64,000 bases of DNA, from contig NZ_JAAKEI010000005.1 in assembly GCF_011039085.1 (NCBI RefSeq), forward strand, positions 1-64,000, written 5' to 3'. Shown here piece by piece: positions 15,338 through 64,000 of this stretch; within the stretch, counting starts at the first letter, position 1, and every line of letters starts with the position of its first letter. Under the pieces are notes generated by a model that was not told the DNA's origin, ran no database searches, and saw only the letters and a program-made list of their open reading frames with translations. Source of the stretch: Desulfovibrio sp. ZJ369. Lineage in GTDB: Bacteria > Desulfobacterota > Desulfovibrionia > Desulfovibrionales > Desulfovibrionaceae. A program made the translations under genes and the position numbers.

Positions 15338-15691
15338 GTGCCGAGCCTCAAAGACTTTGCCTTGTACGATATAGACTGGAATCTCACGCCCGAACATGCG
15401 GTAACCATGTATCTGGAATGGGGCAACAACGACTGGCATTCGGAATACCCGCCGGTGCGCTCCAAAGACGACGTGGCGCAGTATTTTGTGGTGGACAGTT
15501 GGAACGATCCGCCGGTCATCCGGCTGGTGCGCCGCAATTCCGAGCGCGCCGAGGATCTGATTGTCGTGCCCCTGCCCCAGGATCTGCTGGAAGATTTCCG
15601 CCGGGCGCACGGCCAGTGGCGCGGCATCAGCGAGCCCACGCCCGGGATCAAGGCCTGGCTCAAGGCCGAGCTGGGGCAGCAGGGCTTGTGA
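15338..15691 (+). CDS. Small conserved protein of unknown function
   Basis: 117 aa, soluble, acidic, with no signal peptide or membrane segment. It opens with DWNLTPEHAVTMYLEWGNNDW and continues into a segment with VRSKDDVAQYFVVDSW. From memory, proteins with this DWN-TPE-AV--YLEWGNN opening occur widely in Desulfovibrio-type sulfate reducers without an assigned function; this needs a search. The GTG start at 15338 is supported by AAAAGGAG seven bases upstream. It sits alone between repeat clusters. Confidence 0.8.
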   Translation: MPSLKDFALYDIDWNLTPEHAVTMYLEWGNNDWHSEYPPVRSKDDVAQYFVVDSWNDPPVIRLVRRNSERAEDLIVVPLPQDLLEDFRRAHGQWRGISEPTPGIKAWLKAELGQQGL

Positions 15692-15721
15692 TGCCTCTGG
15701 CGCTGCTGTGCAGCGCAGAGC

Positions 15722-15762
15722 GCCGCTTTTGAAATTGAATAATTTCAAAAGCAAAATGCTCC
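15722..15762. repeat. Partial B-type repeat, one boundary hairpin (B4)
   Basis: GCCGCTTTTGAAATTG...AATTTCAAAAGC then AAAATGCTCCA: the left hairpin of the B element in inverted orientation, with a decayed terminus. It lies between the convergent small-protein gene and the ABC permease gene. Confidence 0.75.
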
Positions 15763-15765
15763 AGG

Positions 15766-16434
15766 TCAGCGCGCGCCGAATCCCGGCACATGGAAGCGCT
15801 GTTCCAGCCAGCGCAAAAGCCAGGAAGCCAGGGTCACCATGATCAGATAATAGGCTCCCACAGTCAGGAAAACCTCGGTAAAGCGAAAGGTGTCCGAAGC
15901 CACCACCTTGCCTTCGCCCATCAGTTCCATGCAGGTCACCAGATAGGCCAGGGAACTGTATTTGATCAGATAAATGATTTCGTTGCCGCAACCGGGCAGG
16001 GCCCGCCGGGCCGCCTGGGGAATGACGATCCAGACCACTGTTTGCAGAGTGCTGAAGCCAAGGGCCTGGGCCGCGCGGATCTGGCCCTGGCGGATGGAAA
16101 GCAGGGCCCCCCGGATATATTCCGACTGGTATGCCGCGGTGCAGAGAATGAAGGAAGTCAGGGCCGCGCCGTAGGGCGCGAAATAAATGCCCAGCTTGGG
16201 CAGGGCGTAATAGATCATCATCAGTTGCACGGCCAGGGGCACGCCGCGCAGCAGGGCCGTGTACCAGTCGCCCAGGCGGCGCAGCCAGCGCGGCCCGAAA
16301 ACGCGCGCGCAGCCGAGCAGCACCCCGCCCACAAAGCCCAGGCTCCCGGCCGGGATGATCAGCGCCAGGGAAACCAGAAGGCCCTTGTTGAGCGCGGGCA
16401 GCAGCGCATGGCTGAAAAAGGCCGTATCCAGCAT
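15766..16434 (-). CDS. Polar amino acid ABC transporter permease (second permease gene of the operon)
   Basis: 222 aa, HisM/GlnP type, with about five membrane segments. The ATPase-docking EAA loop is seen as GALLSIRQGQIRAAQALG followed by IVIPQA. It is the last gene of the operon and pairs with the other permease (17344-18036). It is separated from the ATPase gene by the 141-bp repeat C1. The ATG at 16434 has GGAGGG nine bases upstream (on the minus strand), partly inside the flanking repeat margin. The substrate cannot be told from sequence alone. Confidence 0.92.
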   Translation of the reverse strand: MLDTAFFSHALLPALNKGLLVSLALIIPAGSLGFVGGVLLGCARVFGPRWLRRLGDWYTALLRGVPLAVQLMMIYYALPKLGIYFAPYGAALTSFILCTAAYQSEYIRGALLSIRQGQIRAAQALGFSTLQTVVWIVIPQAARRALPGCGNEIIYLIKYSSLAYLVTCMELMGEGKVVASDTFRFTEVFLTVGAYYLIMVTLASWLLRWLEQRFHVPGFGAR

Positions 16435-16443
16435 GCCCCCTCC

Positions 16444-16584
16444 TAGAGCAGATTACCTTTGACTTTTTATGAAAGTCAAAGGTGGCATTCAGGCGAAAAA
16501 CGCGGTTTTCGCCTGAATGTACGCCGCGTTGCGGCGGCTGCCGCTTTCGCGTCAGCAGAGCATTTTCAAAGAGAAAATGCTCTA
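16444..16584. repeat. 141-bp composite structured repeat, copy C1
   Basis: Four hairpins: TAGAGCAGATTACCTTTGAC paired with its complement; a 14-bp stem at 16486-16519 with loop ACGCGG; CGCCGC/GCGGCG (16522-16536); and a right boundary hairpin CATTTTC/GAAAATG ending GCTCTA. It differs from 18299-18439 at one base, in the centre of the last hairpin. The TAG stop of the ATPase gene (16582-16584, minus strand) is the terminal TAG of the element. Confidence 0.95.
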
Positions 16585-17340
16585 AGCTCCCATCTCCAGA
16601 AGACGGGCGCAAAAATCGCGGGTGCGGGTGGCAGAGCCCTCGGCCAGCAGAACTTCCGGCGCGCCCTGCTCAATGAGCCTGCCGTGCTCCATGAACAGAA
16701 TCTCCGTGGCCAGGGCACGCGCAAAATCCATCTGGTGCGTGGCCATGAGCATGGTCATGCCGCCGCTCGCCAGATCGCGGATCACGGCAAGCACCTCGCC
16801 CACCAGTTCGGGGTCAAGAGCCGAGGTGGGTTCATCCAGCAAAATCACCTTGGGGTCCATGGCCAGGGCCCTGGCAATGGCCACGCGCTGTTTCTGCCCG
16901 CCCGAGAGCTGCGCCGGGTAGAGCGGGGCGCGCCGCGCCAGGCCCACGCGGCCCAGTTCCTCCAGGGCGCGGGCTTTGGCTTCCCTGCGGGACATGCCGC
17001 GCACCTTGCGCAAGGCAATGGCCACATTCTCTTCGGCGGTCAGATGATCGAAGAGGTTGAAATCCTGGAAGATCATGCCTACATGGGCGCGAAATTCGCA
17101 GAGTTTTTTCCTGTCGCCGCTCTCCAGGAGTTCGCCGTCCAGCCAGATTTGCCCGCTGTCCGGGGGGATCAGGCAGTCGATGCACTGTAAGAGCGTGCTC
17201 TTGCCCGCGCCTGATGGGCCGATCAGCACCTTGAGCTCGCCGCGCCGCACGCTGAGCGAGCAATTATCCAGGATGGGCTTGCCGCCCAGGGTCTTGGAAA
17301 TGCCTTGGACCTGCAATACCACTTTGTCTTCCGCTCTCAT
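16582..17340 (-). CDS. Polar amino acid ABC transporter ATP-binding protein
   Basis: 252 aa, GlnQ/HisP type. Walker A GPSGAGKST, Q-loop FQDFNLF, signature LSGGQKQRVAIARA, Walker B VILLDEPTSALDPE and the switch His in MATHQMDFA are all intact. It energises import of the amino acid delivered by the binding protein at 18460-19203. It starts 3 bases after the upstream permease stop, so the pair is tightly coupled. Its stop codon is contributed by repeat C1. Confidence 0.96.
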   Translation of the reverse strand: MRAEDKVVLQVQGISKTLGGKPILDNCSLSVRRGELKVLIGPSGAGKSTLLQCIDCLIPPDSGQIWLDGELLESGDRKKLCEFRAHVGMIFQDFNLFDHLTAEENVAIALRKVRGMSRREAKARALEELGRVGLARRAPLYPAQLSGGQKQRVAIARALAMDPKVILLDEPTSALDPELVGEVLAVIRDLASGGMTMLMATHQMDFARALATEILFMEHGRLIEQGAPEVLLAEGSATRTRDFCARLLEMGA

Positions 17341-62774: not shown

Positions 62775-63315
62775 CAATTCCGGCAGGAAACTCTCGCGCA
62801 CGCCTGCGCACCGTAAGGCCCTGTTGCACAATCTCGCCAAGGCGCTGCTGATCCACGGCAAAATCCGCACCACGGAAATGAAGGCCAAGGAATTGCGCCG
62901 TGTGGTGGAACCGTTGATTACGCTGGCCAAGCGCAACGATTTGCACGCGCGCCGTCAGGCGTATCGCGTGCTCAACGATCACGCTCTGGTCAAACGCCTG
63001 TTTGACGAAATCGGTCCCGTATTCGCCGGGGTGCCCGGCGGTTACACCCGTGTGCTCAAGCTGGCCATGCCGCGTAAGGGCGACAACGCGCCTATGGCGA
63101 TTATTGAACTCTCCCGCGTGGCTGAGCCTGCTGCTGACGACAAGCCCGCCAGGGGCAAGCAGACCGCCGCGCCTCAAGTCGCCCCTGCCGGGGAAACGAA
63201 AGGCAAAGCCGCAGACGAATCTGCGCCGGCGGACGCTCTGGAAGCCAAGCCTGCGAGTTCCGGCACGCCGAAAGCTGAAAAAGAGCCCGGACAGGACGAA
63301 AGCTCCGCTGCATAA
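62764..63315 (+). CDS. rplQ: Ribosomal protein L17 with long C-terminal tail
   Basis: 183 aa. The L17 core (residues 1-120: [36 protein letters not shown]) is followed by about 60 residues rich in Ala, Lys, Glu and Pro with no predicted fold. The usual length is 115-130 aa. Last gene of the supercluster. Confidence 0.97.
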
Positions 63316-63343
63316 CAGTTGCGCTGCAATTGACTGTAGAGAT

Positions 63344-63370
63344 GGGGGGGGCGATGGTCCCCCCTTTTTT
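63344..63370 (+). terminator. Intrinsic terminator of the ribosomal supercluster
   Basis: GGGGGGGG, a 7-base loop, CCCCCC, then TTTTTT; 28 bases after the rplQ stop. Confidence 0.95.
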
Positions 63371-63546
63371 GTTTGCAGCATTGCAGTGGCTCTACGCCTG
63401 AAAAAACTCTTGCCGTTGAAGTGCCGCGCCTTTTGCCTCTCCCGGCTGCGCCGGGACTGCGGCAGAGAGCCGGGGAAAGTATGTATTTGCAGAATATGGT
63501 CGGGGAATGCAAGATACGACATGACGATGCCGGATTGAGAGCAGAT

Positions 63547-63583
63547 GAGAGCGTTTAGCTGCTTTCATTAGCAAAAAACTCCA
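63547..63583. repeat. Degenerate A-type palindrome upstream of selD (A7)
   Basis: GAGAGCGTTTAGCTGCTTTC then ATTAGCAAAAAACTCCA: both ends recognisable but decayed. Confidence 0.65.
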
Positions 63584-63658
63584 AGCCCTGCCGCGCAGGG
63601 AGAATCTCTGCCGGGCAGAGCATTGGCCTGTCATTGCCGTGAGACACAGGAGCGCCTT

Positions 63659-64000
63659 ATGAAATTACTGGAAAAAGCCCGGGCCGCCGGTTGAGCGGCA
63701 AAGTTGGCTCCAGGGGCCCTGGAGCGGATTTTGCGCGGCACTGCATCGGCGACGCCGCCTGAGCTGGAAGCCAGAGTGCTGGCGGGCCGGGCCCGCAATG
63801 AGGATGCCGTGGTGCTTTCCGTGCCCCCAGGTCGCGCTTTGGTGCAGACCGTGGACATTCTGGCGCCCATTGTCAATGATGCCTTTGCCTTCGGCCGCAT
63901 TGCCGCCGCCAATGCCCTTTCCGACGTCTACGCCCTGGGCGGCGAGCCGTGGTGCGCCATGAATGTGGCGTGCTTTCCGCAGGCTCTGGCCGAAGACGAT
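63659..64000 (+). CDS. selD: Selenide, water dikinase SelD, selenoprotein form (5' part)
   Basis: First 114 codons, open to the window end if the TGA at codon 12 (63692-63694) is read as selenocysteine: MKLLEKARAAG-Sec-AAKLAPG. The downstream reading TVDILAPIVND, FGRIAAANALSDVYALGGEP is classic SelD, which makes selenophosphate from selenide and ATP. The Sec sits where other SelD proteins have the catalytic Cys before a conserved Lys. AGGAG precedes the ATG at 63659 by six bases. Annotated by ordinary rules it would be missed or truncated. It should be followed off-window by other selenocysteine genes or stand alone. Confidence 0.92.
63692..63725 (+). promoter_or_regulatory. In-frame UGA (Sec) codon and SECIS-like hairpin
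   Basis: The UGA (63692-63694) is followed after 12 bases by an 8-bp stem GCTCCAGG/CCTGGAGC pattern (63707-63714 with 63718-63725) closed by a GGC apical loop, about 20 bases from the UGA. This is the spacing of bacterial SECIS elements, with a G in the apical loop for SelB. Confidence 0.75.

Follow-up and report, generated by a model that had tools for sequence, protein, structure and literature searches.

Of the SelD genes in one reference set of prokaryotes, 19% contain selenocysteine (Sec), always at the same position (PMC4561486), and UxxK has been described as the SelD motif in work that reports Sec-to-Cys changes as rare and found mainly in FdhA and SelD (PMC13188914; for general background, see PMC9312934 and PMC5029168). 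The closest described systems are the SelD proteins of Desulfovibrio vulgaris and D. desulfuricans, both listed as selenoproteins in Table 3 of a 2006 study (PMC1794560); these species belong to the same family as the organism considered here, and D. desulfuricans probably to the same genus. Judging from that listing, we found no difference in kind between their proteins and the product of the selD gene at the end of the window (the whole stretch of 64,000 nucleotides that was analysed). The window selD fits the published pattern for Sec-containing SelD and, as this has long been known, is nothing new in kind.

E. coli SelD (3u0o) belongs to the same family by sequence, but carries Cys at the position of Sec here and so has neither a UGA nor a SECIS, unlike the window gene. 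The N-terminal loop of Aquifex SelD (2yye/2zod) is a close match, with GCAAK in the crystallised sequence; that chain has Cys where a Sec codon stands here, though the Cys in 2yye presumably stands for a natural Sec.

An in-frame TGA at codon 12 of selD

The features at this end of the window are the following:

63648..63652, + strand: AGGAG, ribosome-binding-site-like, read directly from the sequence
63659..64000, + strand: 5' part of selD, selenide water dikinase, continuing beyond the window end to a TAA at 64715-64717
63692..63694, + strand: in-frame TGA (codon 12), a Sec codon aligned with the Cys of E. coli SelD, motif G-U-A-A-K
63707..63725, + strand: bacterial SECIS-type hairpin with an 8-bp stem (63707-63714 / 63718-63725) and a 3-nt loop (63715-63717), from folding and family conservation

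A spacer of six bases separates AGGAG from the ATG at 63659, eleven codons lead to the TGA, and the frame is then open to the end of the window, which takes in the first 114 codons of selD; the gene structure described in the sequence-only reading is thus borne out. On the contig, with the TGA read through, the product has 352 residues with Sec at residue 12. It matches TIGR00476 selD at 313.6 bits (cut-off 125), contains the Pfam domains AIRS and AIRS_C, and also matches the narrower NCBIfam SelD models NF002098 and NF010705, each below its cut-off. Residue 12 is aligned with the Cys of E. coli SelD (3u0o), which we take to be the catalytic one, and with the Cys of Aquifex SelD (2yye), confirming the earlier claim that the TGA lies at the Cys/Sec position (G-Sec-AAK); G-U-A-A-K also conforms to the UxxK motif. 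The proposal that SelD is itself a selenoprotein would have been undermined by an alternative start after the TGA with a conserved Cys-containing N-terminus encoded elsewhere, but a SelD family search of the genome found no second SelD with an N-terminus of its own: the three other matches reach at most 43.9 bits, below the cut-off, and begin at family position 31 or later.

By eye, frames resembling rpoA and rplQ lie upstream of selD, with a T-rich hairpin after the rplQ-like one, and a tRNA-like sequence and frames resembling tig, clpP and clpX lie downstream.

A hairpin conserved after the TGA

The hairpin reads GCTCCAGG-GGC-CCTGGAGC (63707-63725). Its eight base pairs had been noticed from the sequence alone and stand, but the distance then given, about 20 bases after the TGA, applies to the loop, whereas the stem begins 12 bases past the TGA. 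The 57 nt from 63689 to 63745 fold at -30.1 kcal/mol, compared with -21.3 +/- 2.6 kcal/mol for shuffled versions (z -3.36), and none of 200 shuffles folded as well.

Conservation was assessed over 88 TGA-bearing family loci, our own included, which yield 77 distinct 45-mers. Over the seven outer pairs, standard pairing is seen in 510 of 539 cells, with all seven present in 54 of the 77 sequences and at least six in 72. Under a synonymous null, in which codons were resampled with the protein kept and codon usage was drawn from the 25 codons that follow in these loci, 63.4 +/- 1.6% of cells were paired (maximum 68.6%) and all seven pairs occurred in at most six of the 77 sequences over 1000 resamplings; this null ignores relatedness. 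Changes on both sides of the stem are seen at the outermost pair (GC 44, CG 13) and at the eighth and innermost (GC 47, AT 13, CG 2), and these are also the least kept pairs (61 and 67 of 77 respectively). Five sequences (L037, L069, L070, L086 and L096) have five or fewer of the seven pairs, which speaks mildly against strict conservation. Judging from these sequences, the structure is kept by selection beyond the codon constraint, as for a putative bSECIS.

A search of 63300-64000 against Rfam gave no match at the hairpin; two matches, far under gathering scores, fall on the opposite strand and away from it. Hairpin sequences with GCCATGCCCG recur at intergenic candidate sites elsewhere (L150 at about 6952 and 10102, L155 at about 6879) and are perhaps a REP-like repeat.

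Sec-type SelD among relatives

SelD scores over the cut-off in 130 of 149 sampled family genomes (19 are without), and 128 of these 130 have an in-frame TGA. The best match reads one TGA in 126; G017 has the TGA upstream of a partial SelD match, and G113 has it in a separate N-terminal fragment that was taken as part of the same gene. The residue was read directly in 90 loci, our own plus 89 from the remaining 129 genomes with SelD above the cut-off, giving 88 TGA and two Cys, and the frame upstream of the TGA is similar among family loci. Sec-type SelD thus appears, as far as sequence can tell, to be the usual form among the sampled relatives. The two genomes with Cys at the position of residue 12 are G008 (L060), which has all seven hairpin pairs, and G111 (L061), which has four. 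Their best tRNA-Sec matches score 47.9 bits in G008 and 80.9 bits, a strong match, in G111, and Cys-SelD therefore seems to occur both with and without the Sec trait.

Within the genus, 61 genomes, some of them incomplete, could be compared. Those with selB over the cut-off number 43, comprising 41 with a TGA-containing selD, one with a TGA-less selD and one with no selD over the cut-off; the 18 with no selB over the cut-off divide into two, three and 13 respectively. Put the other way, TGA-containing selD occurs in 43 of 61 genomes and is accompanied by selB over the cut-off in 41 of those 43. The association gives a Fisher P of 1e-10 over all 61 genomes and 0.002 over the 47 with selD, values that ignore relatedness. 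Three genomes depart from it: G163 (99% complete; selD locus L204) and G166 (79% complete) have a TGA-containing selD with seven of seven pairs and no selB over the cut-off, while G137, rated 100% complete, has selB and a strong tRNA-Sec and no selD over the cut-off. Gaps in the assemblies might account for these exceptions.

The TGA-less genes of the genus differ among themselves. In G155 (L202), SelD is 75% identical to that of the window and has TGT (Cys) with six of seven hairpin pairs and no selB over the cut-off in the genome; from its sequence, this looks like a recent Sec-to-Cys change. Cys-SelD with three of seven pairs is found both with selB over the cut-off (G164) and with none (G179). 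The TGA-less SelD of G189 (L203), another genome with no selB over the cut-off, aligned only from residue 48, at 33% identity, so that residue 12 falls outside the alignment.

Gene order varies: in G165 (C64) and G177 (C27) selD adjoins selB, the two genes sharing a strand, and in G202 (C139) it lies near selB on the opposite strand, in each case unlike this genome.

Sec machinery and other candidate selenoproteins

The sequence-only reading had proposed a search for selA, selB and selC, whose absence would have counted against it. All three are present in the genome, selA at 576.7 bits, selB at 340.5 bits (two parts joined) and selC at 77.3 bits, the last called by ARAGORN as tRNA-SeC with anticodon tca. 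A second tRNA-Sec match over threshold (49.3 bits, cut-off 47) is presumably tRNA-Ser-like, because genomes without a stronger match also reach 47-48 bits.

SelB matches across the genus either span the full length (about 1-580) or cover an N-terminal part (about 1-345). The match in this genome is of the N-terminal kind plus a separate C-terminal piece, and the middle of SelB seems to have diverged.

Could SelD be the sole client of this machinery? We considered this because several candidates gave nothing: the genome (G000, rated 100% complete) has no match to the FdhA model or to molybdopterin oxidoreductase (PF00384), none of its three [NiFe] hydrogenase matches, one a short fragment, contains a stop codon, and the best match to 2-selenouridine synthase (MnmH) scores 21.3 bits against a cut-off of 219.75. 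For comparison, MnmH is over the cut-off in 8 of 61 genus genomes, and the absence of a PF00384 match strikes us as unusual in a Desulfovibrio that carries the Sec trait. A sole-client role is ruled out by two genes with in-frame TGAs in the sampled stretches, which make up some 31% of the genome: grdA (TGA at C97:61126; NF040748, 251.1 bits, cut-off 130), with a frame at about C97:60955-61470 (L199, about 955-1470), and grdB (TGA at C97:56397; TIGR01917, 617.1 bits, cut-off 602.2), with a frame at about C97:55353-56660 (L198, about 15353-16660). Their TGAs are 4.7 kb apart. After the TGA, grdB has a clear hairpin (-16.6 kcal/mol), and the fold in grdA is weak (-8.8 kcal/mol over 45 nt). Both genes support working Sec decoding, and glycine reductase, besides SelD, probably draws on the Sec trait here. 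D. desulfuricans G11 has been reported to fix CO2 via the reductive glycine pathway (PMC7547702).

A cruder scan for in-frame TGAs in the window and six stretches gave 19 candidates, 11 of them in the window, selD included. A codon-model scan gave six: grdA and grdB, confirmed by the family models, one that is weak, and three that by eye look like ordinary gene ends beside a new gene. This second scan omitted selD; it therefore misses real cases and does not represent the whole selenoproteome.

Reading of the UGA codon

Taken together, the position of the TGA, the kept hairpin, the presence of selA, selB and selC, the grdA and grdB genes and the co-occurrence with selB support the original proposal that SelD is itself a selenoprotein. 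We are therefore in very little doubt that the window selD encodes a Sec-containing selenophosphate synthetase, its UGA at codon 12 being read via the hairpin, SelB and Sec-tRNA(Sec). Ribosomes starting at the ATG at 63659 would meet the UGA at codon 12, where SelB, carrying Sec-tRNA(Sec) and bound to the hairpin 12 bases downstream, would bring about insertion of Sec in place of termination; we infer both the binding and the insertion at residue 12. The Sec would sit in an N-terminal flexible loop and act in selenium handling, with a catalytic role for residue 12 suggested by analogy with known SelD enzymes. The AIR-synthase-like fold would convert selenide and ATP to selenophosphate, which would pass via SelA into new SelD, GrdA and GrdB.

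Were the TGA instead a genuine stop codon or an artefact of sequencing, SelD would start further downstream or be a pseudogene, and start-like codons do exist past the TGA, the next being TTG 63704, with TTG 63731 and GTG 63776 beyond it. However, a start at any of these would leave out residue 12, the counterpart of the E. coli Cys, and the hairpin beyond the TGA is conserved. The recurrence of TGA at this position in 88 of the 90 family loci read, with a similar frame upstream, speaks strongly against a stop or an error, an explanation that we consider exceedingly improbable. Alternatively, a suppressor tRNA or near-cognate decoding might read the UGA and put in an ordinary amino acid; the two of 43 genus genomes that have a TGA-containing selD and no selB over the cut-off would fit such decoding. 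Yet selA, selB and tRNA-Sec are all present in this genome, and every readable TGA-less locus has Cys (two in the family set, three in the genus set), which makes an ordinary amino acid at residue 12 very improbable.

Implications

With Sec as the preferred reading of codon 12, this selD is a clean and checkable example of a known loop, in which the enzyme that donates selenium itself needs selenium. It is also a gene that a gene finder treating TGA only as a stop would truncate. The genus offers a natural comparison, between Sec-SelD with selB on the one hand and, on the other, a close Cys-SelD that retains most of the hairpin in a genome with no selB over the cut-off. Since SelD depends on Sec and Sec in turn on SelD, it is conceivable, though we think it unlikely, that the Sec trait in this lineage behaves as a self-sustaining switch, from which a one-base change of TGA to TGT plus loss of selB would be the escape, a route suggested by the relative G155. 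If this were so, cells depleted of SelD could restart only with residual enzyme or through mis-reading of the UGA.
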